64,000 nt of DNA from Liolophura sinensis (Eukaryota; Mollusca; Polyplacophora; Chitonida; Chitonidae). Shown here in pieces: positions 14,383 to 64,000 of this stretch (position 1 is the stretch's first letter; each line of letters begins with the position of its first letter). Location of the stretch: contig NC_088295.1 in NCBI RefSeq assembly GCF_032854445.1, positions 76,226,028-76,290,027 of the forward strand, in the 5' to 3' direction. The position numbers were made by a program, and so were the translations under genes. The notes beneath the pieces were generated by a model. That model saw only the letters and a list, made by a program, of their open reading frames with translations, had not been told where the DNA came from and did not search any database.

Positions 14383-28702
<14,320 letters not shown>

Positions 28703-32190: not shown

Positions 32191-35100
32191 TCATAACTGG
32201 CCAGCGGTCGATGACCCTCCGTTGGAACGAGATGAAGACATTGATCCCGGGGCAGGGGAGCTCCAGTCCCCTACAGGTACAGCTGTCTCGTACACTCGTG
32301 AAGCTGTTCTGTTGTAAACAGGTAGCCACTCATTGGCCTCATGAGGAAATAACTGTGATTCAACAAAGAGACATTCTTAGTGATATATTCTACACCAAAC
32401 AGGGCTCTAAGTTCATGTGGAAATACGAACAGGTAACTCTTATGACAACCTGATGTACACAATACTGGCTGAGCATAGTGTTGTAGCATGTCGTGTGATT
32501 CACGATAACTGGCATCCAGCAGGTAGTCTGAACAGTCAGAAAGTCTACAATACATCTATGACAAACAGTGCAAGCAAATGGGGGAACTCACTGAACTCCT
32601 CCTCACCTATAACAAAATGGTCCAACACTAAAAAGCCCTTTGTTCTGTCCCTAATTATGTTGCGATTATCAGTGCTTGTGTACTCATCAAACATCTAGGT
32701 TTTATGCACTGCAGTGCCAAAGAAGAAAAAGTTTGTTCTACTGCCATTTATTATATGAAGTAAGGTTAATCATACAGACAACTCAAAACTATGTGCAAAA
32801 ATATTTTCATTTATTTTTTCAGATTTTTTCAAGTGAAAGGTGTTTAAATATTTAAAAACTATGGTGGGCTTTACAAGCCGTACTGATGGTATCTAGGAAC
32901 TCTGATGTCACATCACCTTTTTTTCCTGATGTTCACCAGAATGAAGGAATTTTTGGAAACATTATTTCAATAATCTTTTACTCACGGGTAAAAGGATTTA
33001 TTCCACCATTCAGCGTAGGGATGAGAGTTGGACAAACTTCCTGTGACGTCAGAGTTCCTAACCTCGGATATTCAGATTTTTGAGCACCTTGAACTTTTTT
33101 CACAAAAATCACAAAAAAGAAATGGAAGTATACTTATGCATAGTTTTAAGTGGCCTATTTAGTGATGCCTACTTTGGTTTTTAGAGGTCTTCTCCTATAA
33201 CTGTAATTCCTACTAAAACACATTCTTGTCTACATGTACCAGTGAATTCACATGCACATACCTTTAGGTAGATGGAAGCATCCGTGCCATATCCCTCCAG
33301 TGAGTTGAGAACGAGATCACCTTGAAAATATCGGGCGTAGAGACGAGACAATGGCAGGCCATAACCATACCCAGCCTATTCAAAGGAAAGAACAAGAATC
33401 TATGTCACACCACATAATTTAGCAGGATATATTTGTGTATTATTAAAATGCGTTTATAATGCTGGTTTCCTCTCCTGTCTTACGTATGAATGTCTGTCAG
33501 CAACCTGCAGATGGCCATCGATTTCTCCATGGCTCTGCCTGGTTTCCTCCCACCACAATGATGGTTGCCGTTATGTAAGTCAAGTATTACTGTGTATATC
33601 CCGAATCAAATATGTAAATAAATAAAACTAATAATACCCAGTAAATGGTAAAACCACAGAAAAAACGAAAACACATTATTGAGACACCCGAATGTTGATT
33701 GCCAGAAGCATAATTCCACATCATACTGGTGTATGAGAATGTGCTTTTCGTTTTTGGGGTAAAACTGCTATGTGGGAGAGACAGGTAGTGACTAGCATTA
33801 CTGTTGTATTAACTTACCAATGGCGGTGAGCCTGAACCGCCCTTCTCAGGCTGGGGAGCTGTGGAGTACATGTACTGAAACAACTGGTCAAGCTTACTTC
33901 TCGGCACTCCCCCACCCTGGTCGCTCACCTGCATCAGGTTAACACACATTTTACATCCAAGCAATGAGACATTTTTATATCTAAACAGTTAAACAAAAAA
34001 AACAAAACAGACTGTCCTTGGCATGAAATTTATCAGAGAACCTTCTGGACTTTGGAATACTCTTCAAATCTCTGTACCAGTTACCCATGTGTTACTAGGG
34101 CATATATCAGTGCTTCAAGTCTTAAGTTTTGTTAACATGTCAAGAAAATTACAGGATATCAAAGAGATTTTCATACTATCATACATACCAGATGTAAACT
34201 CGGACATAATAAACAAACTTGGGTTGACATACTAAGATTTTACTTAACCCATACATAATAATGAGACTAATAAACTCCAAACTATTCAAGTGTATTTCTG
34301 TTTGCTTTACTCGACTGACTACAGAATTTAATTTAACTCAGTGCAGTACAGTGTAACTAACCCTGATGGTGACATCTTCTTCACCCTTGCATACCATCAC
34401 TCTTAATTTGGGGACTTTAATCTCCTTATGGTGATATTCCACAACAGCCCGCATGGCATTCTGCAAACAGAAAACAATGTGGCCTCATCACTTTCAGTTT
34501 CTGACAACAATGTAAATGGAGTACTAAATTTATTTATTTATTTGAATGGTGTTTTACGCCGTACTCAAAAATATTTCACTTACACCACGGCAGCCAGCAT
34601 TATGGTGGGAGGAAACCCACAACCATCCGCAGGTTGCTGACAGACCTCCCCACTTACGACCGGAGATAGAGTACTAAAAAACTGCTCCAAAAATCATTTG
34701 TATACAAATCCCCAAATAGAAAGCAATTGTTTACCACAAAAACGTGTTTGTAAGCCATTTTGAAGAACATATGCGACATCACACTGCTGAAGCTAATATC
34801 AGGATAAGCTTGTCCTTCCACAGAATCAAAGACATGAAGAAATCTAACTGTACCTCACTTAATGTGGCACGGACTTGGTAAAAATAAAGTTGGATGAATG
34901 GCTGACTTACCTTAAATAATTCAAACAGCATGTGGTAGAGATGAGATGGGACGTAAACCATGAAGATTTCACGATCTAATGACTGAGCTGCAAAAGACAT
35001 GATGAATGGAAATTAAGGTCAAACAAAATACACAAAATTACAAACAAAATTATCTAATAATGTTGCCAAGCTATAAGCTCAAAATAACAATAATATTAAT

Positions 35101-38100
35101 AAACATATCATATGTACTGTACAGAGCGAATTGCATTTAATTTAATATTCCTGTTTTCACAAGGTTAAGTTGTATTGTATTATCCTTACATGAACTTCAA
35201 GTTATTCCATCACCAGTCTAATCCTAACCCGTTAAACAGAAATAAAGTTTGAAAAACAAAAAAATATATCTACTTACGATCATGACTAATAATTTCAACA
35301 TCAGGTGATACGAGATAATATTGATCACATAGGAACCGAGCATTCTCATATGCATCTGAAAGAAAAAGTTTCCAATAATATTATATTTATAACAACACAG
35401 CTATGGTAAGAACTAATTGTAAGGGGTATACACTCTACAGTCATTAGCACACTATGCTGTCACTTTTCATTAGGCTAGAGCCTATGACTGATCAGTTTCA
35501 AATCTAAACATGCCACACGTATCATTTTTCAATGTGAATTGCAATTTTTATATTGGCAATATGCACAGTAAAGCACCAAGGTAAATCAAATCACTAATGA
35601 AACAACATTTGCAGGATTTATTGCAGGGAAACCAATGACCAGCCAGAATCCAGGAGAACTTTTTAAGGACATGGGCGACTCCAACTCAATTTGAGATTCC
35701 ACAAATTAGCCCTGTAAATACAATTTTTATTACATGTAAAATGTAAGTACCTAAAACTTACGTAAAGACTACGATAGTTTTCAAACATGACCTAGTGCAG
35801 TTCAACAGTGATAGTGATAGTGAAGTTGCACGCCAAATTTGATCAAAATCTGAATATTTGTAGCAGTTATTTCACAGAAACCCCTTGAAACATGATGGAG
35901 ACAGACTCAAATCAATATTTCTCACTTTCCTCACATTCACAGAGGAGGGGGATAAAAAATAATTAGACATGTGTTGATACCTTTAATGACATCAACAACA
36001 TGGCAGTTGGGGTCTATACAACCTATGTGACGAGAGTGATGTGCCATCTGGCTACCAAACAGCATTGCTGAAAATAAAAACAAAACCAACCTGTTACCAG
36101 TATTTAAATATTGTATAAACACACATAAAATGATGTCTACAATTTGTTTTGCCAAATTGTTACATGTAATTCCACTCGCCAAAACTGCACATGTATAGAG
36201 AGAGTTACCAGAAATGAAAGCAAAAGTAGCTAATACAATGATACTTTGTATGTATTTAGAACTTTCTGTGACTCATTTCCACCTTTATTACACACTCTAC
36301 TGATAAGATGTGTTTCCTAATATCATGGTACCTATAACAAATGTTATCACAATCTAAACGACTGGTTATTAAATATATGACCATGCTATGTAAACACTTT
36401 ACATTTGCACAAATTTGAGCTTTGAACAGCATGTCTGAGAAAGTCGGTTAGCCTGTACTCACTGTGCTGGTTCATGAGCATTCGGATGCTAATACGACTC
36501 ATATAGAAGCGGTCCAGAAAGTACTGTATCTGTGTGTCAACTCCCATGTGTGTCGGGCGATTCTCCTTTAGTTCCATGACTCCCTAAAAGTAAAAAAACA
36601 AAATCATCCAGTAACACTCCGATCTGGTTCACATCAGGTTATGTTAATCCATCCAACTCGTTATGCACTAAATGAGTAGAAATTACCAAATTCAAACGGG
36701 AAACACAAAAAAATTGATGAACTCGTAACACTTTTTCCTGCCAAAACATTACAGTCCAAATTCTCTGTCTTGTGTTACTTCCAGTAGTACGTCACACTTC
36801 CTACACTTACATGTAGGAAGTACACAAGCAATGAGATGTTTCACCAGACAACTATAATGTGGTTCACTGAGATTTGGGCCTTTCTCTGTAGCCTGCCAGT
36901 GTGCAAATTACATAATGTATGAACTAGTAATGACCATGCTGCCCTTGTGTGAAAAATACATACATCAGTTTTTATGTCAGCTGTTTATTAACCAAGTCCT
37001 GATTTTTCAATCTGAAATGAACACCAAGCATATGTATTTTGAAAAGATATAAATTAGGGCTTACCTGAGCCATGGTTTCCACTACATTGGAGTGACGATT
37101 CCTGATGTGCACCAGCGTTTCTGTGAAGCTGGGAAAAATAAAAAGTAAGCCACATAAGATTAACTGGTCATACATTATCATAAAGTACCCCATCAAATTA
37201 TGGTACTATTACTTCAGGATAAAATCAGTATGTATGCTACAGCAACTGCTGTGATACCGCTGTAATACTGCCAACATGGTGTTTAACCCCAACCACTCAT
37301 TCATTCTAGAATACCTGACTACATACATATATCTGGAAGCTTTAAGCCTTCTTCATGCCCGCATCTGTGATACCAGACGCGGAATTTATTATGAAATCAT
37401 TATAGTGAACTACGTGCATTTCCAATTGCGTGAGTAAGCAAAGCAGGCAAAAATTTCCAAATAATTTCATTTAGATAGTTTAATTCTTTAAAAGTAATAG
37501 ACACGGGCACATTTTGTTTTCTTTACTTACATGCATATATAGCACAAGTATGCTTTTTGACATGTACATTTACCATACTCACTTTTCCAAGACATCAGTA
37601 TTCTCTGGATCTGCCTCTTCAAATGCCAGGATCTCTTTAAAGCTTTGCTGGTACCTGTGAAAGGACAAAGTTATTCTACAATACACCTAGTTAATCTATG
37701 ATCAGAAAATACACCCGCAGTCTGAAATACACTCTTAAACAAAATGGGGAGATGGGAAGGCGGTCTTCAACCACTACTTTGTCCGAAATTTTTCACTGCA
37801 AAATTTCTACCGTGGTATGTCACACTGAATGCGATGTTATTATGTCAAGCTGGGAAAGGAGCATTTGAAATCAATTAAATGGCCTTTGCCAGGACCCCAA
37901 CTCCCCATTTCACCTAAAGTTTTAAATAAGCGCATAGTGAATATTCACATTCCATAAAGATAGTCGACTCTTCATTACACAAACTGATTTTGATGGTTGA
38001 ATTGTTTCAGCAGGATTTTAGTCATATCAGCACGACATGACCATGTTTGTACAAATGTTAACTATCAAATATGTCAGCTGATACATTGAAAATACAGTTT

Positions 38101-41100: not shown

Positions 41101-44100
41101 GAATTAGGAAATGTGACATCCTAATAGTAAATAGAGTTAAAACTCCTTGCTTTTAGTTTTACTAAAGCATTGGATAAAAAAAAAGCATGCAAACAATCCC
41201 AGTTAGATTACACAATTACTGGCTCACATGAGTCACATCCAAATTAAGTCGTTATTTTCCATTCTATATGTAGTTCATTAATTACCTCCTGCAACAGCAG
41301 GATCTACAGTGCACATGTACAGTCAGGTAAAAATCAATGGCCTGACTCAGACAACATGGGTGCTTATGTCATATCAACATACAATTGCATCATCTAAGTA
41401 ACACCTTTCTAAAACCTATCTGGTTGTTCAGATGTTGAGAAATTAACAGAATGATGAAATCTTTCCGAGAATTTACGACAGCAATCACTTTACAGTACTT
41501 CTTGGAAAGTGAAAATTCATTAGTCAGATATCATTGTGTAAAAAAGGGAAAAACAGTCAACACCCTAGTTTACAAGGAATAATGGCATATCAACATAACA
41601 GAAACTTTATTCTGTTGCTGATATATACATTTATATATATTACGTTCCTTTCAATATCCCCCCCCCCACCCCCAAAGTAAGAAACTTTATTCTGTTGCTG
41701 ATATATACATATATATATATACATATATATATATATTATGTTCCTTTTCAATATTATTTCCCCACTGGAACTATAAACCAAAGATTATGTTTCTATGCCA
41801 AATGAAGAGAATTTCTGTTAAAAAAATTTGGGGAAAGGAGGGGGGGGGGGGTATTTTTTTTACCTGTTAATTACCTTCTATATTACATATTTTCCGTCAA
41901 CAGTCAGGTTTTGTCAGAAATTATGTAATTGCTGACCTTGCTCGGCAGTCAGTGAACGCTCTCGAAGGGCCCTGAGCCTGGTGAACCATGTCGCAGTTTG
42001 GGCAAGGTGACATGTACACAGATACTGCATGGCTACAAGGTGACGTGTACAGATACTGTATGGCTAAAAGGTGACATGTACACAGATACTGCATGGCTAC
42101 AAGATGACATGTACACAGATACTGCATGGCTACAAGGTGACGTGTACGCAGATACTGCATGGCTACAAGGTGACGTGTACGCAGATACTGCATGGCTACA
42201 AGGTGACATGTACACAGATACTGCATGGCTACAAGGTGACGTACACAGATACTGCATGGCTAAAAGGTGACATGTACACAGATACTGCATGGCTACAAGG
42301 TGACATGTACACAGAAACTGCATGGCTTCTTCTGACCAGCTTAGTGCCCCCTCCAAGCCCCTCCACCTCAAGCACATTTGGTCTGTTCCCCAGACCCCTG
42401 CCCCCATTCGGCCAGACCCGTTTGATCTCTCCCCCACAGAGTTCTTTTTAAACAGGGAACATCGTTGACATCACCACTGCAAGCTACTTAATTTCCAGAC
42501 TGGCCGCTGGAGCCTTAAGAAAGCTGTACTCTGAAGCCATATTTACCCCCCAAAGTGAAAGCTGAAAAAATTGTGTGTACAGTTATGTTATTACACATGA
42601 TAATCTGCACATTAAGAAACGAAACCAAAGCACTTCATGTATCCTTTAAGACACACATTTCTGCTAATAAATGAAGCTCTACTCTGCCATAGTCTGTCAT
42701 TCTTAGGTGTGAACTGTGAATGAGTGTTTTGGTATTTTGTTCTGCCTAAATGAAGTGAAAGGAATTCATTTTGAAATTGCTTATAATTTTTAAAAAATGA
42801 TTCATAAGTGCAACCTGACAATAATATAAAAGTACCTGTATATCCTTCAAGTTTGCAAAGATCAGGCTGATAAGTTGTAATACAGGAAACAGAATATCCT
42901 AAAGCTACACTGTACAACAGGCCACCTACAAGGGAGTCATGGAACTGCCTGGATTGATTCCGGATTTAAAATATTAAAATTTTTCAACTTTTGTCATGCA
43001 TGTATGTTTTGTTTCACATACAAAAATAAAATAACCACTGAACTGACTGATTTCTGGATTAATTGTGAGTGGGGACATACTTGGAAACCATTTCACTAAG
43101 TCTAGCATGCAAACCATCGTTCTATATTTATATAGCTGCAGCATATATAGGTCAGCAAGTATTTATTCCTAAATTCCAATAAAATAACATACACAGCTTA
43201 ACATGTTGCAATGTATCATCTTCAACCTCTGTCGAGATAAGCACTAGCAGTGTATTGGAGATCAATAATGGTACTTACCAACTGTGAACAAGTTTTACTG
43301 AAGGGGTTCTCAGGAGTTGTGTCGGCAGCAAGTTGATCTCTTTCATGATATTTGCAAGTCGCACAGGAACCTCCTTCCGCAGAAACTCAAAAGATGTCTT
43401 CTCACAAGCATTATTGGAACCTACAAATATGCAAGAGAAACAAAAAACTTAGTTATGGCCTTTTTACCTGAAAGTCATAATGATAAATAGTGAACACACA
43501 TGTAAATAATGTGACACATATATAGATATATATTTATCATATACCTATGTTTACGACATCCTATACAAGCCTTGTGATACAAAGTTTTGTATCAGATGAC
43601 GAGGACCGGGGAAAGCCTTGAACTATATTTGTTATATGGCAACACTCACAGCCTACAAATTCTTTCCAAGCTGAAATTTGACAGTCACAGACACTATTTT
43701 TGAGAGTTGCAATAACTGTACATTTTATTAGTTAGTTCAGTTATGTTTGAGTTTGACATTTGGTCTGTTTGTGCTGCTGTGAATCAAACATATATTGACA
43801 TTTCGAAGTTACCTCCACGGTGACGATAGCAATGATGTCGGGATCCCATGTGGCATCGTGATACAAAATGAAAACATGGTCATACTGTTTAAGACTATGA
43901 TTATTCATCAGGACTCAGGCCTCACTGAGTAGAAAATCCCAGATTATTCTTGAATAAATTTCACTCAGTTTATCATGTGCATTCACTTTGTGATGTGTAG
44001 TTTAATATTTATTACAAACTATGTTTGTTTGCGAGTTTACAAGTAGCATGATCAGGCTATCGACCAAATGATTTCAAATGAATCAGGTGGACACTTCTAT

Positions 44101-44226
44101 ATACTCACCAAATTTCAGCAGCTGTTCTAGAGAAACTGGTGATGGGTTATAGGCTGCATACTTTTCAAATGCTCTTGGAGTGATGATGACTTTCTTCATC
44201 TGATACAGAAGTTTTGAGTACTTCAT
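32191..44226 (-). CDS. PDK: Pyruvate dehydrogenase (acetyl-transferring) kinase, mitochondrial (12 coding exons, complete)
   Basis: Phosphorylates and inactivates the E1alpha subunit of pyruvate dehydrogenase in the mitochondrial matrix. Exons: 44109-44226 (ATG), 43279-43420, 37583-37654, 37065-37128, 36463-36583, 35981-36067, 35278-35355, 34911-34987, 34362-34460, 33818-33928, 33262-33375, 32191-32352 (stop). Splice sites and phases agree; the total is 1,245 nt, 414 residues. Landmarks in order: [105 protein letters not shown] (N box of the GHKL ATP site); [10 protein letters not shown] (G1); [20 protein letters not shown] (G2); then LPVYNRTA and the C-terminal GDW (DW motif). The C-terminus after GDW is short and Ser/Gly-rich. 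Which vertebrate paralogue is closest is unclear. An alternative first exon is listed separately. Confidence 0.96.
33480..33625 (+). mobile_element. SINE family 1, 5'-truncated
   Basis: Plus-orientation body: 'gtcagcaacctgcagatgg', 'ggctctgcctggtttcctcc', 'caccacaatgatggttgccg', then a diverged junction and an AAATAAATAAAAC tail. It lies in the PDK intron between exons 33,262-33,375 and 33,818-33,928. Confidence 0.75.
34528..34672 (-). mobile_element. SINE family 1, head-truncated
   Basis: It begins with the ATTTATTTATTTATTTG tail complement, then 'ggtgttttacgccgtactca', 'agcattatggtgggagg' and 'ccgcaggttgctgacagac'. It stops before the tRNA-like head. It is close to the family consensus, so it is a fairly young copy. 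It lies in a PDK intron directly next to exon 34,362-34,460. Confidence 0.85.
37255..37311 (+). mobile_element. SINE family 3, 3'-end fragment
   Basis: 'tgccaacatggtgtttaacc' followed by 'ccaaccactcattcattc' resembles the 3' end of the element at 13,243-13,580. It is short and placed only by similarity of the tail. It lies in a PDK intron. Confidence 0.4.
39030..39147 (+). mobile_element. SINE family 1, 5'-truncated
   Basis: Contains 'cgtttccttccaccataatg', 'ctggctgtcgtcatataagt', 'gaaacattcttgaatacgg', 'aaccaatca' and an AAATAAATAAATAAATA tail. It lies in the long PDK intron between exons 37,583-37,654 and 43,279-43,420. Confidence 0.85.
41599..41757. repeat. Tandem duplication with (TA)n and a C-run
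   Basis: 'gaaactttattctgttgctg' followed by 'atatatacat', a TA-rich block and 'tgttcctttcaatat' occurs twice, at about 41,600 and 41,681. The copies are separated by a CCCCCCCCCACCCCC run, and the second copy has an expanded TA tract. It lies in the long PDK intron. Confidence 0.85.
42007..42327. repeat. 33-bp minisatellite, 10 copies, in a PDK intron
   Basis: The unit is 'ggtgacatgtacacagat' plus 'actgcatggctacaa'. There are ten copies in a row. Two are 31 bp, and most differ only at a G/A position in 'gacatg/gacgtg' or 'acacag/acgcag'. Because 33 is divisible by three, long open frames appear on both strands across the array (for example near 42,033-42,437 and 42,071-42,451). I regard these as artefacts of the repeat, not genes. 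Confidence 0.95.
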
Positions 44227-45738
44227 TGTGGAACCTGATTTTGTCCCCTTCACTTAAATTAAATAATACTGCCTCGTTCCGCCAACACACGTTGTGTATA
44301 TGTATTTGTAGTTGTAACTAGTCCCAGTCAGTGTGTTCATGTCGTATGACGACAGTATCCACGCCAAATTTCATTTACAAGTCAAAATCAAACGTTGAGA
44401 TAAATAAGAGACCTGCCTAGTTGGTAATATCCGCTGTGTTTGTACACAAAGACACGCGGATGGTTGACCAGTTGTTTCCGGAACCTACAATCAGCTGACC
44501 TCCTTTTGTGGCTAAATATAGAACAAGCTCAAGGCACAGGCCAATGAACCGGACTGCCCCAAACGCTTCTAAAATACTAACTCAATGTCTTAGGAGTAGA
44601 AATTATCCACCAGCCCCGAATGCGTTGATCACAGTTCCAGAAAAAGCTTACAGAGGCTCGCGAAAAAGCATGAGCACACATGTAAAATCAAGGTGATCAG
44701 TGTCGACGTTGTTGTCGTTGCAGCGATGGTGATGTCCGCTCCGCCTTTTTAAAGATGTAATTCTTTAATGGGTTTCCCGTTAGCTCAAACCTAGCAACAG
44801 TCTTCTTTGAGATATAATGCGACCCCGAAACGTCACATATACACCTATAGCAACCGCTTTGTGTTTCCTCGTGCCTTCGCCCCTACACTTTTCCATTTGT
44901 TGGCTGTGGAATTTTCCTCCAACCTTCCGTTGTGTTTCTCTGGTTAGAAGCGTCCTGCATCACTATATGCGCATTACGCCGGGAATTTTCCGCCGGACAC
45001 CGTCACAGTGCCCAGCGCGCATGCTTACCCAGGATCATCAATGATACCATCGACTAACTTAATTTAACTGGGTCAGTGATTGTAGATCATGAATTTATTT
45101 ATTTTTTTTATTTATTTATTTGATTATACATGTAAATCAATAACAGATGTAATAAGGGGCACTCTAATTGCATTATTTCTTTTTCAGCCAGTGTTACGCT
45201 CAGTGGCATACTGATCTTTTCGCAGGCCTACCGGTATTCCCAATCTTCACATCTGGTTTTATAAAGATATACGAGTAGGATATTATATGTGATAGGGCTC
45301 ATCACATAGGCCCCGTTTTGGTTATAGACACTTCAATTTCATTGTATACAACCTAGGTATTTTCGAATTATATGCCCATTTATGATGTATGTTTCCGTAT
45401 ATAGGTACCGATAGATGTATACAAGCAAGTTGTGCTGCGTGTGCATAGCCCTACTGCCCAAGGGTAGCCTATAACAGGACAAGTCTATATATGCATGTAC
45501 ATGTAATAGGTAATAAAATATTTGTGAGTGGTAATGAGTTGTTTTGGGCAGGGAAATAGGTCTGTTCCTCTGGTTTGCTCGGCTGATACACCTGTTTCCT
45601 TTAATAACAAACACCTTTCAACTCCAATGGCGCTGTTGGTCAGGTTTGCATTTTGAACAGCAAAACAGGCCTCGCCCTTCCCCTCCCCCTACCAACCTGG
45701 AAAATAAACATTGATTTCTTCGATTTGTTGACACTCAC

Positions 45739-45850
45739 CAAAGTCCAGAAACTTTTTCATGGAGAGTGGAGATGGATTATAGACGGAGTATTGGTCAAGT
45801 CGGACTGCCATCCGCTGGGCTGCCTGTCGCAGACTCTGTGTGGCCTTCAT
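45739..45850 (-). CDS. PDK: Alternative first coding exon of PDK (exon 1b)
   Basis: On the minus strand an ATG at 45,850 opens 37 codons ending at a donor TTTG|GTGAGT, the same phase and the same last residues (..DFG) as exon 1a (..KFG). It encodes a basic, amphipathic start (MKATQSLRQAAQRMAVRLDQ) and then YNPSPLSMKKFLDFG, which matches the conserved PDK N-terminal helix even better than exon 1a does. Both ATGs sit in the same CACAATGAAG context, so the two exons look like tandem duplicates. Spliced to 43,279-43,420 it would give a 412-residue protein with a different mitochondrial leader. It lies 1.5 kb upstream of exon 1a, implying its own promoter. It could instead be a relic, but it has no stop or splice defect. 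Confidence 0.85.
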
Positions 45851-46238
45851 TGTGAAGCCCCATCCACATCTGTGTCACCTGTTACAGCTGGTCAGTTTAT
45901 ACAGCGCAGAAATACACACGTCTGCACGTGAAGGAGTTTGAACCGGTCTGTAGGTCTGGATCTATAGCGTAGGCCTATGAGCCTAATCTCTGACCCGGAC
46001 GATATATAGGGCCTACGTGATAACACTTTAAACATGTAGGAATATATACTGCAAACAGGTTAAACAGAAACCTTGGGCCAGCTAACCGGCCATCTCATCA
46101 AGGACGGATCACATTTCCAGATCTGAAATTATATTTCGGTCACCTAAATGTAGAAAGCTAAGGCCCTTTTACATATAGACGAGTTGTGAGTTTATTTACT
46201 CAACGCCAAATATGACATGCTTATTATAGGAAGAGGCT

Positions 46239-46241
<3 letters not shown>

Positions 46242-46328
<87 letters not shown>
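46242..46328. repeat. (TA)n microsatellite, about 43 repeats
   Basis: An uninterrupted TATATA tract of about 87 bp passes into a short CACACA run. It lies upstream of PDK exon 1b on the minus-strand transcript side. Its length is likely to vary between individuals, and such tracts are prone to assembly error. Confidence 0.97.
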
Positions 46329-46335
<7 letters not shown>

Positions 46336-46516
46336 TCTATGTAGTCTAATATAACTTTATAAGAGTAGGCCTAATTGATGGGTATTCGCTGTATTAAGAC
46401 TCGAGCACCTTTATACACAAATCATCTCCCCGAATTACGGCATTTCCATATAATCACACTCTCCACAAACGTCTGTATACTTATACCCACCCTATACACC
46501 TTCACAGATGTTATGT

Positions 46517-46597
46517 AGATTTATTTATTTAGTTGATTGGTGTTTTACGCCGTACTCAAGAATATTTCACTTATACGACGGCGGCCAGCATTATGTG
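46517..46597 (-). mobile_element. SINE family 1, tail-proximal fragment
   Basis: It reads 'tttatttatttagttgattg', 'gtgttttacgccgtactcaa', 'gaatatttcacttatacgac', 'ggcggccagcattatg', then stops abruptly. The sequence looks essentially consensus, so this is a young but truncated copy. Confidence 0.85.
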
Positions 46598-49456
46598 TTC
46601 CTGTATGCATGCGCCTATATATGCTCTCGTTATCTCGTTATTTCCAAATCTATGTAATAACTTGGTGAGCATATATATCGCTTTGTAGACATTCCATCAA
46701 TCCATGATGGCAGGGGAGAACGAAGTTAAACATTTGACAAATTTTTAGAAGTATAGTAAAATTGGCCATAACTTTCTGGCATGAGGTAAAGCTGTACTGG
46801 CTCGTTATGCATTTCCAAACCAATGCATACCTGTTACATCTATTTAAACAGGTCATAATTCTGTCATAAGTATATATCGTTGTTCACAAAACGAAGTGAA
46901 AAGAAAAGATAACAACTGACCAAATGTATATGTGTCGATAAAGCATTCCGCAAGAAGTTTTAAAAGCATAGCTATTTATTTTTGTGATGTTTCATAACCC
47001 ACCTATACCATTCCTTATACCAGCCCGGCGAGATATATCGCAGTTCAAAGTAAGCAAGATCACTCACACTGAGACAGTCGAAAGTGCCGCCATGTTGTCA
47101 GTTTTATCCAGTCAGGCGCAAGTTAGTTCTATAACCTGACGATGCGTCTGTTACCGCTTAGACGTCACCCGAACCATGTTTTGCCCTTTACCCATATGTG
47201 GGTAACGCAGCATCGTGTTTCTGGTTGCTTTAACATGGCGCATCCCATGCATGGTTAGAATTCGAGTTTAAATATTGATTTATTGAGTTACCAAGGACGT
47301 TAGAAAACAATTGCTGTGGCCCTTTAGGTCAATCCCCCCACCCCACCACTTCCTGAGTAACTCAGGTCATATTCTTGTTGTCTTTTCTTTTAAGCCAAGA
47401 AAATGTAATTTGCCAGCCGCATAAACTGACGTGCATGCCGCATGTAGTTTCCGTGCTGTAAATATGTAAACAGCGATCTTCTGTGTGCATGTCAGTCTAT
47501 ATTACTGGTGATTTCATGTAAGTATAAAACTGCTCTTTTATTGGTATTTCCTCTGGTTACCGCTGTTTTTGTTCACCTTATCTATAAAGCAACATGATGT
47601 AGATGTAAGTGCCCACGCAGTAAAATATAGAAGACAATGCATTGTGTATAGTACAGTATATTTACAGCAAAGGCTTGATTGCTTGGTGTATATATGAATA
47701 GAAGTTTATTCTAGAGCCAGACGATATATGACGTGTAAGCGCATGTCCGCTCTTCTCTACATCTCCTGCTCTTACATCAGAGACGCACAGAAATTTTGAC
47801 GAATGTGCCAAGTTAGATGATTAAGTAGCAATTACATGGTGCCAGAAATATCACTTTTGTAAGTTGGTGTGTAAACAAACAAGTGTTTTCTTTTACCTAT
47901 GCATGCACCGCGTGTATATACATGTATATGAGTCGTGGATGCGGTAGACACAGATTATACGCATCTTATGCTGTACTTATACAATGTCCTTTTTATCTTT
48001 ATAATGAAACTAAAAATGAAACGATGGAATCTTGCAAGGTGTCAGGACCGAATACAAGAATAACGATTACGACCATTACAGATGGTACGTTGGACCGTAT
48101 ATTTATTAGGGGAGGGGGGGGGGGGCAAGCACTTGTGGCAGTTTTGTTATAAAAAATCTTAGGTTACTTTAAAGGCTATGTGAAACGGTATTATAAAACG
48201 AAGAGTATGTTTCAAAGAAAATAAAGAAGATATGGAAAAAAAATTTGCTTTCATATTTGAGGCATATATTGTATTTTTGAATAACCCCTCTATTTTATAC
48301 ATGTTTTCTCAGTAGTCATATACGAAATATTTGTAAATGACATCATTGATGAACATATTGGTGACGCGAGACCGTCAACGAAAAGTTTGGGCTGTCTCTC
48401 CAGTGAACCTGTTGTTGACGTTACCACATGCAGCAGGCTATATAATTTCGTGAATGACCGCTTTGGGAAAACTAGTTTATTGCCATTCTTACGCCCCAAC
48501 AAGAAAGCTGAGAACCTTTTTTGTACCTATATATGTCAGGCCACATCAAATACTTCGTATTAGGATACATCAACCAAGCATTTCATTTATTTCCTTTACA
48601 GAATACCATGTCATGCCTTCCTCTTGTTCCTTTGCAAGAAGTCTTACGATTAATTGCGTTGCTCATTCTTCAGCAAAATGTTAGACAGAAACAAGACAAA
48701 TGCCAGCAGCTGCATTTAGCTCTCATTATCGGAATAGTGCTACTGTACACTCACTTGCCTAGTTCTGAGATCGGTTAGCCCTGTTCCCAGCCTAACTTTC
48801 ACATTAAGTATTTCTGAACGCTTATCTGGGAAGAATGAAACAGATATCCGATTTATCACTTGCCCTGCACTCTGTATATAGGGAATGCATGTGACCATAC
48901 ATGTGTTGACCACTTCTATACATAAATATTTGTAAGAATGTTTTTTTGATTGAATTTATCATCCACTCGGTTATATACATACGGTTAACATATATATCTC
49001 GTAACTGGGTGGGGCCGAGAGTGTGGAAACGGTGTATCTCTCAGATATAACATTCGATTATTTCATAGCGATTTCTACTGTTGTATAGCTGCATGGGAAC
49101 ACCCAACGCAACCATGTTTGTTTAGTACTGCATCAATGAAGCCCTTTTTTTTTTTACACAGAAAAATGCATGTACCAGACTCGCATTTTATAGTATATAT
49201 ACTCTCAATAAACTGACTTTAAAGAAGGCAACAAATAATAGAAGTTGGGTCGAAACAGACCCATAAGGTCAAAGAGAATGTCAGACGTGCTTGTTAACTC
49301 TGCGATACAGCTTTTATTCTGGATTTCTTATACGAGGCCATGGGATGCGCTATGTGATAGAGCAACCGAAAACACGACGTTGCGTCATTCGTACCCCAAG
49401 GTCATATATGCACAATTCAGAGTCCTTGTGTTATGGAAATATTTCGCGCCTGATTG

Positions 49457-49633
49457 GTTAAAACTGTTAACATGGTGGCGCTTTCGATTGCCTTGTGAAA
49501 TGTGCTCGATTTTGCCTACTTTGAACTGCGATATCTCGATTGTGCTACATCACAAAAACAAAAGCTCATGATTTTTAAACTTCCTATGGTATACTTTATA
49601 GATACATGTATACATTTGGACTGGTGTTTTATT
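49457..49633 (+). repeat. Dispersed repeat family 4, copy B
   Basis: Partner of 13,940-14,096: 'ggcgctttcgattgcc', 'ttgaactgcgatatctcgat', 'tgtgctacatcac', an A-rich block and 'gatacatgtatacatttgga' in the same order. The CpG sites are better preserved here than in copy A, where several have decayed to TpG or CpA, so this copy looks younger. Confidence 0.6.
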
Positions 49634-52112
49634 TACTCTTAAGCGCTTGACATGTAACCCCAGATCACCTGTACTCGAGCTGGACCTCTATATAAGCTAA
49701 GCAAGTACTGGGTCAGCTTAAGCGCTACACATATAGAAAAGTATATGGACATGGGGGCTTAATATTTCACCTTTTCATCTTGTTTCATCTACAGTGAAAT
49801 ACAGATGTATGTATGTATCAGCCGTCAATCAAAATGGACTCAATAATCGCTAAACCAATTTCCAAAACAAAGTTCAACTCAAACCACAAAAGAGCTATTT
49901 AAGAAAATAGGCCTATACAAAATAAGAAATTAGGATGGATCCACGCAAAGAGAGGCAGTCAACAGTTTCCTGTGATGACGGGAAGACGCGAGGAATGTTG
50001 TATAGGCGAATGAATAAAAACAGTATGCAAATCGTGTACGATGACCGATTTAACTCAGGCCTACTTGACCTGTGGTAAATGTGTGTCCTATCGAGGAACC
50101 CTCCTTAATGACACATATCACATACCGACCTCCTTATACACCACGAATTCAGCGGAGTAGTCCAAAGAAATAGATCACTCTTCACGTCTCTTTTCTTCGG
50201 TAGTGTATTTTGTGTAATATTTTCAAATGTACGCTTAAACGGTTGCAATCGCTTTCAGAAGCATACTTCATTCTGTCCTTCTATAAATGCATGTATAACT
50301 GTAGGTGACTTTGGCAAGTAATGCATACCCTTATATGGGATAGGCCAAAGGTGCCTGCCTCCCTTGTGACGTCTTCCCTGTTCTTGCAGTACAGTACCGT
50401 ACGACGATTTTTAACAACAACGAGGTACAGTACAGCCGTCTATACTACTTACATGTTACAAGAGCAGGTGCCTCTGGATAGGCAACGATCAAGAAATGTG
50501 GGAATGGAAACAGAAAGCGGGCGATAAGAGGGCGTTATGACCGTTAGCGATGAGCTCAAAATAGTAAATTTGAATTTGTTAAAAGATCAACGGAACAACC
50601 AAAGTATACAAATCTTATTTGATCCATTTATGTTTCGACTAAATTATCATGAATAATTAATTAATTCCTGTTGATTTTAGGTTTCTAGCTAATTCAGTGT
50701 GGTCGACCTAAAGTGTGTGCATGGCTTATATATATATTGGACATACGCAGCTGTCCACCTGTAAATAGGCCTATATATTTCTTCCCTGAACTTTTGACCT
50801 CTTCGTTGATGCATCTTTATACATGTACATTTACAGCATACATGCATGGTATTGACACACTTGACTGACCAATGGGTGAATCCTAATTTTAACATTATAG
50901 ATAACCTATATGTACGCAGCTCAGACGGTTAATGATTAATGCATGGTTAGGGGCTCTAAATCTTACATAGGTTATAAATTGTTTGTGAACAGGGTACACA
51001 TACACAGTACATTTATATATAGTCTGTTAATGTCGTCTGCCATTGGTTGTATATACATACACACGTTCCATTCCTTATGTCCAATAGCTTGGTAAGGTTG
51101 TAAGTAAAGTTTAAGTCGTCCCTAGATTGCATGTTTGTTTGGGTAAACATTTATTTCAACATACTGGTTACGCCGATAGCGTGTCCGTGTATAGAAGTCG
51201 GGTCCCATGCACCACCGTACCGACAATACCTGTGGCTGTGCAACACATTGACGCAGACACTTCAGACATGGCGTACATCCCACTCAATTCCCAAATCTTG
51301 AAGACAAAGGATTAGATCGAATGTCTGGACATGTCTTAACCATATTTCTCCAACATGGTAGAACCATAGTATGTTGTTCCACATTGCTCTAAAGCTGTAT
51401 AGGCTTTGCCCGAGTTTATTAATGTGTCTATCAGCAACATTACAGAAAAAGTTATGCTCCGATTTGGATGACTTTTTGTGCATAGTTTGGCCAATCCATA
51501 CCACGTTGGTGGTGATCTGAACGCTGGAATTTTGTAATCCCTTCTTCACCAAATGCTGCCCGAGAGCAGGCTTTCTAATGTATTTAATTTAATTGTTGCT
51601 CAGCGTCACACGCAGAACGTTTCACATTTTAACGTAGCTGTTACAGCATGCGTATTAGTTAACAAAATGCTTGGCAAGTTATTGAATGAATGATTATGCC
51701 GCATCGGCAACATTTCAGCCATATCGTGGCAATGGCAAATTATTGACAAACTTTTCCCGCACACATATACCATAATGACATGCCAAACCAAACTGGTGGG
51801 ATGCAAGGCACCTAAAACACGTAACGCAATACAAAGGAACCCACGAAAATTGTCCACCGCTTATTGCCAAGACCAAGGTGGTCTGCGAATTTCAAGGATT
51901 CCTGTTTCAGTTGGATGGAAACTAGACACGGACACAACATGACGTGACAATACCCTTAAGCTGTTTTACAGATCAAACACTGAAAACTATCAACTGGGAT
52001 GTTTCACCCAGTGAAATCTGAGCAAAATGATTAAAGAAGTATACAACATATTCAGTCTAGAACACTACCCCTACCCCGTCTCTTTCCAGAGCCCAGTCGC
52101 TCTTGGATAGTC

Positions 52113-52345
52113 GGATTTATTTACTTAGTTGTTGTAAAACGCCATACTCCAGAATTTTGCCTGAAACAATAGCTGAACCTTCTCATGGCGGAGGAAACCG
52201 CAGTTCCCAGGACAAACCACCGAACTGTGAGAGTGTCTAATGGGATTTATGGGAATGTACAAATCCCGTCTCCAAGGTCAGGTTTGAGCCAGTACCTTGC
52301 GTGTCCTAGTGCCTGAAATGCATGCACAGCAACTCGGTCACGATC
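52113..52345 (-). mobile_element. Degenerate composite SINE relic
   Basis: The left part ('ggatttatttacttagttg', 'taaaacgccatactcca') resembles the tail and body of family 1. The right part ('gggaatgtacaaatcccgtc', 'aaggtcaggtttgagcc', 'gtcctagtgcctgaa') resembles family 2. It may be two adjacent insertions or one chimeric element; decay makes this hard to tell. Confidence 0.45.
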
Positions 52346-54831
52346 CGTTCTTAGGGATGGTTTGAAAGATTTTGTACACGGCCTCTATATACGATGTTAT
52401 AACTGAGTTATTAAAACAAACGCCTTTTGTCTTCTGCAACATGGCCTGTGCCGTTTATTTCTCATTTACCGTAAGCCATGATTTGAGTCCACTGTTTCTG
52501 TATGCCCTAGCTACTTTGAGAACCTTTCACGGTAACCTTTCACAGTAAATGCCACAACAAGTGAAAGATGAGTAAGTATCTTAAAGAGCACTGATAAAAT
52601 TCATAAACTTTACCAAATACATTTACAGCTTACAGGATGCACAATATTATATCAAACGTAAAATGTCCAATTTTCTCCCAATTTTGGCTGCTCTTTGATC
52701 GTATTATGACGTTTGTACATGATCCACATGCTATTCAATCGATCATAAAATGACTTCATTGCCTTAAGACTTGTATACTGGCAATTTTCTTGACATACAT
52801 TTGCTGCCCAACCGTTTGTGCAAAAACTCCAATGTAATTACAACGTACTTCATTGAGATTTGTGAGTATAACTGTGAGTCAAATGTGGCAACTTAATCTC
52901 TTTGTTGTATCTTTGTAGATAGAACGATTTAGCACAATTACAGACTCCTGTCTAAATGTGTGACACCTCCGCAGTCCATGCAATGGTTGGGACTGCTTTT
53001 ACATTGTATTTGTTTTTATAATGGCGATCTTTAACAAAGTCAATACTTTCATAACACACAAAAATGGCTTTCCCAGTCATACCAAAATTGATATCATTAC
53101 AAAAATTAGGTAATTGATATAAAATTCACATTTCATCACAAAAATAGATGCATTGCTGAGTTCATAATTAATTATACAGAAATGGTATGAATAGCAGCAG
53201 TAAGACATAACGAAATGGTAATCGCATGCTATCTACTGACACTCCTAATATATTCCTGACAAATGACAAGAAGACTTTAGGCAGTCAAGGCAAGGCAAGT
53301 TTGTTAGTAACATACGCTCTACAGAGTTATGTCCCTTTTGTAAACTCGACTCCCACTGTCAATGTTCTTCGCCTCTCTTTCACAGCAATTCAAAACTGTA
53401 ACTTCTGAGTAGTCTTGAAAACACATGCAATACACTTAAGCTTGTGAAACAGGAAAGATATATTCATATTCGACTTCAGCACTATAAACTTCATTAAAAT
53501 TCCTTACCAGGATAATTATACCCACACAGGTTCTCCCACTACGACTATTCAATAACAGGACATTAGGATCACAGAACGTATAAAATAGACTGAAAATGAG
53601 ATAAAATGTCTACTTCTTGAGAAGGTAGGTTTTCAATTGTCAGTGTGGATCACATTTTGTCCATAACTTATCAGGGTAACAGAAATAACGGTAAACTTTG
53701 TAAAGTCATAACAACTTCAACAATTAAATTATACATATTCCTGGGATGACAACAAATGGATGAGGTTTGAAGACAGTATACACAGCTTATCATATATGTA
53801 GGACATTTAAATAGTACTTTTGAAATAGCACAATTTCTTGGCCTCCGTACAACACAAGGCACACAAAGAAAGCCATTATATTCAGTGATCACTCCTCTCC
53901 ATTTCCCCACTTTCCCTTCACAACATTCTGAATGTCGAAGAACCCATGAAACATGCTTAGATTCAAACCCTAATCAGTTTCTCCCCACTACTCTGTCCTT
54001 TTATATGCCCATTCATTGATTTCCCCACGTGAGATAATGTCAATACATCACATTACAAGAAATCCATACGTTCTAATCCACCCACCCCTGAACCTTTTGT
54101 CATTACCGCATCCCAGCACAATTCTGTGACATCAGATGTTCTAATCCCCCATCCCCTGAACCCTGTTTCAGCACTGTATCTCAGCAGAGTCCAATGATGT
54201 CATATGCTCTGAACCACCCCACCCTTGAACCCTTGATAAACACTCTATCTCAGCACAGTCCAATGATGTCAGATGATAGCACTTGGCAATTATGTCTCTC
54301 TCTATGAAGACATAGAGGCTGGTAACCATATCCAGTAAACCTCAGCCATGAATTACTCCGTGAATACATGTCAACATCACTTAACTCCAGTTCCACCAGC
54401 CATGGACGTATCGGAGTTCACAAAAATCTTGTGAAGACAAACCAGAAAGGTGTGAACAGGCCATCACATGGTTCCAACCAGCCTGGATTTTGTCAGCAAA
54501 ATGAACATTTCCATAATTCATGAAGTCTATAGTCACATACACCTTGGATCATCACTCCTGTTTCAATGCCTGAAATTTATTTCCTAATGTTAGAGACATG
54601 TTTTTACTTGACTGTTCATCCATTTGTTTGTTTTCCTCCACGTACCTGTTCAAAATGACGTTCTCTGTATTTCAAAGAAAAACAAACTGTTAAAGGGATA
54701 TGCAGAATCAACATGGACTGGCTTATCAAATGTGCCATAACTAAATACGACATGATGCAGGACAGATTTTAGTCAAGTTTTTCTAAAACAATACAGAAAA
54801 TATATGATGGTTTCCATAAGGAGAAGTAATA

Positions 54832-58300: not shown

Positions 58301-61001
58301 GGCTACATTTGTGGTTAGCAGAAACATTTTTGGGCAACCAAATTCTCATGGTAGCCCAAGGGCTATCAGAGACATGAACATTTTCCTAGCCCTAAATGGA
58401 CAACATTAGGAACAGACATCATTTGGCAGACCAACATTTGTGTATGTCAACAGGGGAAGTACAGAAGATTTATTTATTCATTTTATTTGATTGGTGTTTT
58501 ATGTCATACTCAAGAATATTTCACTTATACAATGGCTGCCAGCATTATGGTGGGAGGAAACCATGCAGAGCCTGGGGGAAACCCACGACCATCCACAGGT
58601 TGCTGACAGACCTTCCCACGTACAGCTGGAGAGAAGCCAGCAAGAGCTAGACTTGAGCTCACAGCAAATGCATTGGTAGGGGCTTTTGTGTCATTGCGCC
58701 ATGTTGGTGTGCTAACCACTTTGGCCACAGAGGCCCCCTGAAGTACAGAAGAGTTCAAGGACAGTTTACAGAGCAAGACAGGGTTACTCCCATCGTGCTG
58801 GCCTGGTTAGCTGGTACATCAAAAGTCCGATTTAGCTAGGAAGCAGATGGACATTTTTTTTGTCTCTATTAATGCTTATATAACCTTTGATGGTTACTTA
58901 GTGGGCAAGAGCAGTGACTGAAAACGTATTGCTACTGCTTTATTGATCTTCCCCCTCATTCACAAGATGTAAAGTTGAGGCTGAGTTACGTTGTAGAGTG
59001 ACATCGGGTTTGTACATGATCAGCATCTGAGAAACAGAAGGGAGTCAATGACTAACAATGGTCGGCAACCACAGCTTTTACAATGATAATGTTTCTTTAA
59101 GGGATGTTGTTACAGGCTACTGAACAAAATTTTCCTCAGTTACTTTGCTTTCAGCACTCTCCAACTTTAATGTCCGGGTTTTGCACATTGTGCATTTCAA
59201 AAGAAGTCTTCTTGGAAAACTACACTAAAGTGTGCAAAAATGTGGATATTTACGAATATTTCTGCCTGATAAGGCATCATGGGTTACACATTAGAGATCA
59301 TACCAGGTTGATTACAGTGACAGAGATAGACGTTATCAGCCAAAAAGTTTTGATTTATTTATTTGATGGCGTTTTACGCCGTACTCAGGAATATTTCATC
59401 TCTATGTGGGCGACCAGCATAAAGTGGGTGGGAAAGCTGGGAAACCCATGACCATTAGCAGGTTGCTGGCCTTTCCATGTATGAGCAGAGAAGAAGCCAA
59501 CATGAGCTGGACTTGAACTCACAGCAACTGCATTGAGAGGCTCCTGTATCAATGCGCAGCATTGACACGCTAACCACCTTTCCCTAGATATCATCCAGAG
59601 ATAAATATCCTCCCATATTTTAGCAAGCTCAACAAACTGGCCAACAACTGGTTCCCAAACTGGCCAATGTCTGATGTCTGTCGTAGTGTGGATACAGTAG
59701 TTATACCCAGTTCCCAGGCCTTGCGAATGCAAACGGTGTGGCCCAGGAACCCACATGGTGTCTATGATGGGCAGCCATATTTGTGAAGTTCAAGCAAGCG
59801 GAGAAGTTGAACTTACTGAAATATGGATGAATATTTACCATCATTTAGATGATGGACAGCTCAGGATTTTATCTGTCTGGCAGTCTAGGCCCTAAGCATT
59901 GTAAAGGGAGTGACTGAGCAGGCTGGGAAGGTTAGAAATCTGACTGTTTTCTGAAATTTCACAATACTTCCTTCAGGGGTGAATGGGAGCAATCCATGAC
60001 TATTGGAGTGCCAGTACAAACATAAAGAAGCCAAGTATTCTCATCCAGGGCTAGTGTCACTCATTAAAATGTCTAAGCAAATGAATGTCAGAAATATAAA
60101 GTATGGAGGCACTGCATTTAATGTGTTGAATTAGTGACAAGCAAAGCAGTGGAACATGGTGTAGTGGTAAGATTTGGACAATGTAGGGTGGGGGGCTCTC
60201 GGGAACTAACAATTTTATGGTACTTGCCAGATTGAATATACATCTCCCCCAACTGCGTCATTAGCAGCTATCATAGCGCCAAGCCCTTTAGCTGCGTTAG
60301 AGCCCCCACCCTCTCTCGTCCACACCTCTAACGCGCTTCTATTTACAAACAAAGCATTGTCTTTCCTTGAAAACTGGTTTTTCCAACGAACAACTAAATA
60401 AACTGGTCAACGAAAAACAGAAGCAGCACCAAAACAACAACCTGGGTCTTTCCTGTTCATTAACAAATGAGAGCGAGACCATATGGACTACGTTGTTGTT
60501 GTTTGTTGTTGGGAAAGTTGAATCCTTGAACACACTGGAGTATAACATTTTGTTTCCCATTCAACAAATCTCGAAACCAAATCATACCTGTGCTACTGCT
60601 GTGGATGTTCCAGTCGTTGAAGAAGACTGTGTTTGTCTGTTTTGAGATTTGTCCTTATCTTTTTTCTTCTTCTGACTTTTCNNNNNNNNNNNNNNNNNNN
60701 NNNNNNNNNNNNNNNNNNNNNNNNNNNNNNNNNNNNNNNNNNNNNNNNNNNNNNNNNNNNNNNNNNNNNNNNNNNNNNNNNNNNNNNNNNNNNNNNNNNN
60801 NNNNNNNNNNNNNNNNNNNNNNNNNNNNNNNNNNNNNNNNNNNNNNNNNNNNNNNNNNNNNNNNNNNNNNNNNNNNNNNNNACTTTTCTGCTGCTCCGAT
60901 TCCTGTTTGACGAGCAGTTCTGTCGGCGTTAATTTCCCCTTTGACTTCTTCGTTCTCTTGTCTTTTTTCGCGAAGAAATCGTCAAGACTTGCATCCGCCA
61001 T
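55318..61001 (-). CDS. CDV3: CDV3 homologue (5 exons; assembly gap and two apparent frame breaks)
   Basis: Conserved small protein of unknown biochemical role (carnitine-deficiency-associated gene expressed in ventricle 3). Exons: 60588-61001 (ATG), 56735-56814, 56209-56356, 55561-55794, 55318-55360 (stop). Matches: start MADASLDDFFAKKDKRTKK; EDQEWKEFEEE and DYTGLRIQNLQI; acidic KEEEDEESDKRDSDDD; Pro-rich EPTPQPPPP; GKYVPPSA; KKGAPNLKSEEDFPTLGG; a Gly-rich run; and a short tail ending EEGKEDPVR. The splice sites are good, but the reading frame breaks at about 56,263 (exon 3) and 55,729 (exon 4). One missing base at each point would restore both, so errors in the assembly are more likely than a dead gene. 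Exon 1 holds a 200-N gap. The last exon is inferred from splice phase only. It is divergent from GGACT. Confidence 0.85.
56866..56975 (-). mobile_element. SINE family 2 fragment
   Basis: Minus-strand order: a box A-like 'tggtctagtagttgaagctg' at the right, 'cactaggaca' in the middle, then 'tttaaaacggccttggacc' and 'gggaattgtggtttcccc'-type end (complement of 56,876-56,900). It lies in the CDV3 intron between exons 1 and 2, close to exon 2. Confidence 0.55.
57183..57290 (-). mobile_element. SINE family 1 fragment, strongly decayed
   Basis: 'tgatttatttcatttgactg', 'cacactcaagaatatttta', 'gatggcaatcagcttcatga', 'tggaatggaggaaac' trace the family-1 order with many mismatches. It lies in CDV3 intron 1. 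Confidence 0.5.
58468..58740 (-). mobile_element. SINE family 1, full length
   Basis: The best complete copy in the window. Read on the minus strand it starts GGGGGCCTCTGTGGCCAAAG then GTGGTTAGCACAC. Box A-like 'tggccaaagtgg' and box B-like 'gagctcaagtctagctc' form a tRNA-derived head. The body has 'ctgtcagcaacctgtggatg', 'cataatgctggcagccat' and 'aatattcttgagta', and it ends with the CAAATAAAATGAATAAATAA tail. It lies in CDV3 intron 1. Confidence 0.85.
59346..59590 (-). mobile_element. SINE family 1, near full length
   Basis: It has the tail 'atttatttatttgatgg', then 'cgttttacgccgtactcagg', 'gaaacccatgaccattagca', 'gaagccaacatgagctgg' and 'acttgaactcacagcaactg', ending near 'gacacgctaaccacc'. 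A short deletion removes part of the middle. It is the second copy within 1 kb in CDV3 intron 1, same orientation as the first. Confidence 0.8.
60682..60881. other. Assembly gap: 200 N
   Basis: Exactly 200 Ns inside CDV3 exon 1, so the length is a placeholder. The bases on the two sides share a seven-base overlap ('acttttc'). Closing the gap on it would give an unbroken frame EQQKSQKKKKDKDK. The true missing sequence may therefore be zero or a short Lys/Gln-rich stretch. Confidence 0.97.
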
Positions 61002-61540
61002 CGTAGATATCTCGGTTATTTGTTTCTAAGTGTAAAATCTGTTAGCGTAGAGTAATTATTCCGAATATTGTTGAAATCCACCAGGAGAAATCTATCGTCA
61101 TGCGGCCGCAGGAATCCATGCGCATGCTTGCGCCGACAGGAAAAGCTATCCCGCAGCTACCGGAAGTATGCAGTCTCATTAGCTGTTTAATTTCCTAGCA
61201 TCGTATCGCCTCAATAGTTGATTGAATGCAACGTTTTCGTCACGTATTATATTTAACGATAGTTTTATAAACAATCACAGGCTAACTGAGTGACTGGGAA
61301 ACCTCTATCGGTTATTACCCAGGGTTTTAATACTTTAAAAAATGCAAGACCATTCCACACAATTTGTGAGGTGTAAAACATCTGGTTGAGTAGAGACTAA
61401 CCAACAGTTGCTTGCGGGCATGCTGGGTTGTTTAAGTTGTTAATTGGAAGCTATATCTGACTTTTATGAGAGACGGAGGCCTCGTGCTTCTTCAGCGCCA
61501 ACTTTATAAACTACTGGGAACTACACTCTCTAGAATTGAA
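61002..61540. promoter_or_regulatory. Bidirectional promoter between CDV3 and GGACT
   Basis: Only 539 bp separate the two divergent start codons. The half near CDV3 is CpG-rich and contains a full ETS/GABPA-type site ACCGGAAGT (61,159-61,167) and an NRF1-like alternating block ATGCGCATGCTTGCGC (61,118-61,133). Both motifs are typical of TATA-less housekeeping promoters in animals. The motifs are seen; their use is inferred. Confidence 0.6.
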
Positions 61541-63962: not shown

Positions 63963-64000
63963 CATCATCTTTAGACATAATCGCATCAATATACAAAATA

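Follow-up and report, generated by a model that had tools for sequence, protein, structure and literature searches.

The PDK locus

The DNA analysed here is a 64-kb stretch (hereafter the window; C1:76226028-76290027) of the genome of a chiton, Liolophura sinensis, which was called Liolophura japonica before a published correction (PMC12441733). It was found that an intact gene for a pyruvate dehydrogenase kinase (PDK) lies on the minus strand of the window and that two candidate first coding exons, 1a and 1b, precede its common body. Exon 1b (45,739..45,850, minus strand) is 112 nucleotides long and encodes 38 amino acids including a split glycine (MKATQSLRQAAQRMAVRLDQYSVYNPSPLSMKKFLDFG). Exon 1a (44,109..44,226, minus strand) is 118 nucleotides long and encodes 40 amino acids, again including the split glycine. 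Since the gene is on the minus strand, exon 1b is located upstream of exon 1a, at a distance of 1.5 kb. The coordinates of the two exons had been given in a preliminary description of this stretch and were confirmed by direct reading and with a script.

The common exon 2 (43,279..43,420, minus strand) has an acceptor, tag|GTTCC, with a score of 14.3, and its phase fits both first exons. The common coding exons 3-12 (32,191..37,654, minus strand) are located at 37,654-37,583, 37,128-37,065, 36,583-36,463, 36,067-35,981, and 35,355-35,278 (exons 3-7) and at 34,987-34,911, 34,460-34,362, 33,928-33,818, 33,375-33,262, and 32,352-32,191 (exons 8-12, the last with the TGA stop codon). Exons 2-12 (from 43,420 to 32,191) are open to this stop codon, and every intron has a GT donor and an AG acceptor. 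Joined to either first exon, they encode an open protein with a terminal stop, of 414 amino acids with exon 1a and 412 with exon 1b. Matches to PF10436 and PF02518 above the cut-off fall in exons 3-12. The BCDHK_Adom3 domain (Pfam cut-off, 24) scores 176.3 bits with exon 1a and 174.1 bits with exon 1b, and the HATPase_c domain (cut-off, 26.4) scores 55.4 and 55.3 bits, respectively. The best PDB matches of both proteins are, in order, PDK2, PDK3, PDK1, and PDK4. The PDK2 score is 517 bits for the 1b protein and 510.9 bits for the 1a protein, while the best BCKDK scores are 132.7 and 133.2 bits. By these matches the gene product is classified as a PDK rather than a BCKDK. Such a kinase would be expected to phosphorylate E1 alpha and to attach to the lipoyl domain of E2.

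A tandem repeat with a 33-base unit (42,003-42,327; 10.0 copies, 92% matches) lies in the intron between exons 2 and 3. Several of its frames are open, on either strand, which a period of 33 bases makes possible.

Two candidate first coding exons

Exons 1a and 1b both start with CACAATGAAG, and each has a YNPSP block. Both end with TTTG|gtgagt, and the last G is split with exon 2, giving the same phase into the exon at 43,420-43,279. An in-frame stop codon is found upstream of the ATG, at 10 codons for exon 1a and at 9 codons for exon 1b. It had been claimed from inspection that both exons are open and intact, with the same ATG context and the YNPSP block, and that their identical donors feed exon 2 in the same phase. 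The first claim was borne out, with scores far above those of random sequences as given below, and the second was supported by splice reconstruction.

A scan for P[ST]P[LVIMF][ST] in the six frames of the window revealed three places: exon 1a, exon 1b, and an unrelated one at 24,465. As a test of chance, a 21-residue core of PDK1-4 was scored with BLOSUM62 in six frames, and 20 first-order Markov random 64-kb windows served as controls. Exon 1b scored 77.0 and exon 1a 60.8. The next place in the window scored 22.8, and the best random window reached 30.2. The donors of exons 1a and 1b both score 9.1 with a matrix built from the other ten donors of the gene, the same ten that it scores at 5.5-12.4. 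The leaders are basic in both exons, as had been described (net charge of +5 in exon 1a and +3 in exon 1b over the first 20 residues). An amphipathic leader helix was not demonstrated, the hydrophobic moment being reached by 51% of shuffles for exon 1a and by 12% for exon 1b.

In the 22 aligned codons nearest the donor, the amino acid is kept at 9 positions (5 with the same codon and 4 with a synonymous codon) and changed at 13. The NG86 method gave a nonsynonymous divergence (dN) of 0.44 and a synonymous divergence (dS) of 1.17 for these 22 codons, which offer very few sites. The codon pattern would be as for two old copies held under constraint, in what is a tiny sample. Judging from the reading frames, splice sites, and core scores, it is likely that both are functional first exons.

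Number of PDK genes in the assembly

Is this the only PDK gene of the chiton? The assembly (609,464,459 bases in 632 contigs) was searched with the 412-residue PDK protein as the query, with E-values up to 1 and only the best-scoring candidates taken. There were 13 matches. Twelve of them fall in the PDK locus, one each for exon 1b and exons 2-12. The 13th (E-value of 0.0096) is located on another contig, C10, 6.7 kb past the point where the PF10436 matches of a BCKDK locus end. A PF10436 search of the assembly gave five matches, two at the PDK locus and three on C10. The C10 locus was rejected as a second PDK gene, as the exon tested there is that of BCKDK (five of the five PDB matches with E-values up to 1; best E-value, 7.6e-15). 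The C10 matches, which spread across 21 kb, were taken as one BCKDK gene.

Thus, a second PDK gene was not found with this query among the best candidates; the search, based on exon 1b, did not recover exon 1a itself, and first exons at other places that have diverged may likewise have escaped it. A tandem gene duplication is unsupported under the same settings, exons 1b and 2-12 each having been found once. According to PMC12005716, this chiton has undergone a partial genome duplication; a single PDK gene was found despite it. Among viral contigs, two stretches fit a pattern and none was confirmed as a relative.

Residues of the docking region

In PDK3, phenylbutyrate docking outlined a narrow hydrophobic channel consisting of Leu27, Gln31, Phe32, Phe35, Ser45, and Phe48, which belongs to a region that takes part in binding E2 through its L2 domain (PMC4551558). 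Docked ligands in the lipoamide-binding pocket of PDK3 contact Lys30, Asp34, Phe35, and Phe48, and AZD7545, which is bound in the lipoamide pocket, inhibits PDKs except PDK4 (PMC4813202). PDK4 responds to Nov3r in the opposite way, and its Leu32 has been suggested as a possible cause (PMC4551558). The residue numbers of that paper agree with the PDK3 sequence, and I infer that its Leu32 is the leucine opposite Phe32 of PDK3. The preliminary description had placed the first helix in a region concerned with regulation and with contact to the lipoyl domain of E2, and this can now be narrowed to the lipoyl-domain binding region dealt with in the two papers.

In a gapless alignment with PDK3 numbering, residues 27-35 are L-S-I-K-Q-F-L-D-F in PDK3 and L-S-M-K-Q-L-L-D-F in PDK4. 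They are L-S-M-K-K-F-L-D-F in exon 1b and V-S-L-E-Q-L-L-K-F in exon 1a. Thus, exon 1b retains Leu27 and Phe32 and has Lys in place of Gln31, while exon 1a has Val27, Leu32 as in PDK4, and opposite charges at positions 30 and 34. An intrahelical bridge could still be possible with the reversed 30/34 pair of exon 1a. As aligned, exons 1a and 1b encode different residues of the region on which the lipoyl domain (L2 of E2) docks.

The exon 1a peptide was used as a short query and scored 19.4 bits with PDK4, 18.5 with PDK3, 14.8 with PDK2, and 12.6 with PDK1 (best sequence of each). The scores of the exon 1b peptide were 22.7 with PDK3, 21.9 with PDK2, 21.7 with PDK1, and 20.1 with PDK4. When exon 1b was replaced by exon 1a in the full protein, the loss was 6.1 bits with PDK2, 4.4 with PDK3, 8.9 with PDK1, and 0.2 with PDK4. 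PDK4 orthology of exon 1a was considered and rejected: the shared body is nearest to PDK2, and the PDK4 lead is confined to the first-exon peptide. By sequence, the likeness of exon 1a to PDK4 is a resemblance at a site and not orthology.

CpG pattern and putative promoters

In the mollusc germ line, gene bodies are methylated and CpG is lost there. A two-state hidden Markov model was applied to the CpG versus TpG/CpA sites of the window. It revealed a CpG-depleted domain at 13,079-44,242 (CpG at 380 of 5,328 sites) and a CpG-kept domain at 44,251-52,553 (268 of 1,459 sites). The boundary (44,242..44,251, no strand) lies at the 5′ edge of exon 1a, and the kept state goes from a posterior of 0.06 at 44,109 to one of 0.98 at 44,400. 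CpG-kept sequence thus covers the regions upstream of both first exons and ends at exon 1a. Depleted and kept domains alternate sharply in the window (13,079-44,242; 44,251-52,553; 60,228-63,994).

Two genes were used for calibration. One, which I take to be CDV3-like, has its ATG at 61,001; here the kept domain extends as far as 60,228, which is 0.77 kb inside the gene, and an assembly gap separates the two positions. In BCKDK on C10, the kept domain ends at 8,724,072. This is 0.41 kb in from the ATG at 8,723,663, the earliest in-frame ATG in the presumed first exon. The corresponding distance in the PDK gene is 0.0 kb from the ATG of exon 1a and 1.6 kb from that of exon 1b. With so few genes to compare, the pattern leans towards germ-line transcription that begins before exon 1a.

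A putative promoter region of exon 1a (44,251..45,150, minus strand) lies inside the intron that follows exon 1b. The CpG observed/expected ratio is 1.0-1.2 in 44,551-45,150 (96th-99th percentile of the window). TATAAA was not found in the 1,000 bases before the ATG of exon 1a; going upstream along the coding strand, the first one is met at 45,263. Between exons 1b and 1a, GCATGCGC is found at 45,024, one of three occurrences in the window, and is presumably an NRF1-like motif.

A putative core promoter of exon 1b (45,896..45,929, minus strand) consists of two ACGTG motifs on the same strand and a TATAAA, 46 bases before the ATG. The first bases of the ACGTG motifs are at 45,929 and 45,921, the first motif being within CACGTG, and the TATAAA is at 45,901-45,896. 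It was revealed that ACGTGcagACGTG, 15 bases upstream of the TATAAA, is the sole tandem ACGTG (spacing of 1-12) on both strands of the window. TATAAA itself occurs 88 times on the two strands, which makes it weak when taken alone. ACGTG is the core of HIF sites. In medusae of the jellyfish Aurelia, PDK expression is raised under hypoxia with a moderate correlation with HIF, and in polyps it is not (PMC5431473).

A putative promoter for each of exons 1a and 1b is suggested by the CpG pattern and the motifs. The CpG edge at exon 1a and the TATAAA and ACGTG motifs at exon 1b are, as promoter signs, leads only. The earlier proposal of one gene making two kinases from two promoters fits the facts as far as it was testable, namely in the single PDK gene found and in the CpG kept upstream of both exons.

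Proposed explanation and its rivals

How could these two exons be used? I propose that they are alternative first coding exons of the single PDK gene found, that a separate promoter serves each of them, and that both are spliced to the common exon 2. Transcripts starting upstream of exon 1a would provide a constitutive enzyme, and transcripts starting upstream of exon 1b, perhaps from a TATA promoter, would provide a conditionally expressed enzyme. The two kinases would have the catalytic core, the ATP site, and the C-terminal tail in common and would have different import leaders. They may differ in how tightly they dock on the pyruvate dehydrogenase complex or in their response to the reduction and acetylation state of the lipoyl groups. 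The choice of promoter would then give some of what vertebrates obtain from separate PDK genes.

On the whole, alternative first exons giving two kinase types from one gene are the probable explanation. The parts of this proposal are not equally probable. The chances that docking or activation differs measurably between the two kinases are about even. The assignment of exon 1a as the constitutive start and exon 1b as the inducible start is tentative and somewhat more likely to be wrong than right. A further version is rather unlikely as a whole: a pocket switch by promoter choice, in which a constitutive exon 1a carries the PDK4-like Leu32 while exon 1b carries the PDK1-3-like Phe behind TATA and tandem ACGTG motifs and is possibly driven by hypoxia during emersion. 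If this were true, the difference between PDK1-3 and PDK4, which is distributed over separate genes in vertebrates, would be approached here by the choice of an exon.

Several observations weigh against the proposal. At exon 1b, out-of-frame upstream ATGs at 45,869 and 45,863 overlap the start, and the one at 45,869 opens a 24-codon frame that overlaps the start codon. They may possibly serve translational control; a start site near 45,870, as a TATA box would set, could put both too close to the cap to matter. An acceptor-like AG at 46,048 scores 8.9, which lies between the lowest and the highest of the gene's own acceptors (8.1-16.1), and exon 1b may therefore be spliced from a 5′ exon further upstream. 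The CpG observed/expected ratio is 0.29-0.51 in 45,301-45,900, around exon 1b, and is higher again upstream. On C10, a further CpG-kept stretch lies amid the BCKDK exons (8,728,586-8,729,487); therefore, kept stretches mark more than promoters. The motifs (TATAAA, ACGTG, and NRF1-like) are short sequences that were considered post hoc and are no more than leads. As for the docking region, the channel is known from docking, and the phenylbutyrate pocket is said to be present in PDK3 only (PMC4551558). Exon 1a differs from the residues shared by PDK1-4 at three positions (L27V, K30E, and D34K) and exon 1b at one (Q31K), departures which could reflect relaxed constraint. The PDK4 lead of exon 1a over PDK3 is only 0.9 bit, comes from one of three PDK4 sequences, and has a best E-value of 0.008; the other two PDK4 sequences (18.3 and 18.1 bits) stand below PDK3 (18.5 bits).

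The strongest rival keeps the two promoters and takes the N-termini to be equivalent after import, so that the amount of the kinase is regulated and not its kind. This has a substantial chance of being right, though short of even. Such regulation is a common mechanism for metabolic genes, and the CpG kept upstream of both exons agrees with it. A salt bridge from residue i to i+4 may also form in both helices, between K30 and D34 in exon 1b and between E30 and K34 in exon 1a. However, the docking residues differ (L27 versus V27 and F32 versus L32), and the charges at positions 30 and 34 are opposite. Besides, the leucine at position 32 has been suggested as a possible cause of the different ligand response of PDK4 (PMC4551558).

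It is unlikely that only one of the first exons is used, with the other left to decay as a relic of an exon duplicated long ago. The departure of exon 1a from several positions conserved in PDK1-4 and the overlapping upstream ATGs of exon 1b would suit a relic. However, both exons are open and have the same start context, donor, and phase, and synonymous changes keep four of the nine shared residues. At an age corresponding to a dS of about 1.2, a relic would be expected to have lost its donor or to contain stop codons or breaks in the frame. None of these is seen in either exon, which is hard to reconcile with a relic.

If exon 1b were spliced to an acceptor just before the ATG of exon 1a, the product would be a single kinase in which the first segment is doubled (1b-1a-2). 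The frame would be preserved with a cag that ends at 44,235 (G|GT TCC ACA ATG). With a matrix built from the gene's own eleven acceptors, however, this site scores -3.7 against 8.1 to 16.1 for those eleven; 49.6% of the minus-strand AGs in the window score equally or better. The best AG within 273 positions upstream of the exon 1a ATG scores 6.6, and there is no pyrimidine tract. This arrangement is highly improbable, and the use of exon 1a as a cassette after exon 1b was rejected on acceptor strength. That exon 1b belongs to another or partial PDK copy nearby, as its position 1.5 kb upstream of exon 1a might suggest, can be practically dismissed, as no extra body exon was found in the assembly among the best candidates at E-values up to 1 and the donor of exon 1b is in the phase of exon 2.

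Other genes in the window

The presumably CDV3-like gene on the minus strand (ATG at 61,001) was named by its N-terminus. A GGACT-like gene (Pfam PF06094) lies at 61,436-61,822 on the plus strand, and the two genes stand head to head in one CpG-kept domain. An assembly gap of 200 N (60,682-60,881) is located within the CDV3-like gene, about 120 bases past the ATG. Two reading frames on the plus strand, at 17,480-17,911 and 22,563-23,021, are assumed to be SMARCE1-like and pinin-like, respectively; the former has no Pfam match. A reading frame at 4,687-4,992 on the minus strand has a BRCT match (Pfam PF12738).

Comparison with known systems

Alternative first exons are an ordinary and well-known mechanism. 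Among the matches listed in the literature search, which lay mostly outside subscription papers, no title or abstract opening mentioned alternative first exons in a mollusc PDK. As far as this search shows, it would be unusual for docking-site residues to be selected by exon choice in what is the sole PDK gene found. If the proposal of two kinase types is true, the chiton naturally makes two kinases that are the same outside some 40 N-terminal residues, and the docking role of the first helix could be measured in them with nothing else changed. The chiton would also illustrate how kinase variety can arise where an animal has a single PDK gene. Public RNA-seq data from five tissues of this species, namely digestive gland, foot, gill, gonad, and heart (SAMN35319765-SAMN35319769), are given in PMC11068029, and the finding is directly testable with them. 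The edges of CpG domains might help to find alternative promoters across the genome, although kept stretches inside genes call for caution.

The chiton proteins resemble BCKDK in belonging to the PF10436 family. However, BCKDK is a separate gene, itself one locus on C10 of this genome, and the matches of the PDK proteins to solved BCKDK chains start at residue 47 or later, past the first exon. As in alternative first exons in general, exons 1a and 1b have their own start codons, a common downstream body, and the same splice phase. In contrast to the general case, the alternative part of the chiton gene includes docking-site residues and not just a leader or an untranslated region. Like the vertebrate PDK1-PDK4, the chiton proteins carry BCDHK_Adom3 and HATPase_c, and Phe or Leu at position 32 separates exon 1b from exon 1a as it separates PDK1-3 from PDK4. 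Mammals have four separate PDK genes, whereas one gene was found in the chiton, with predicted products that differ only in the first 40 or so residues.

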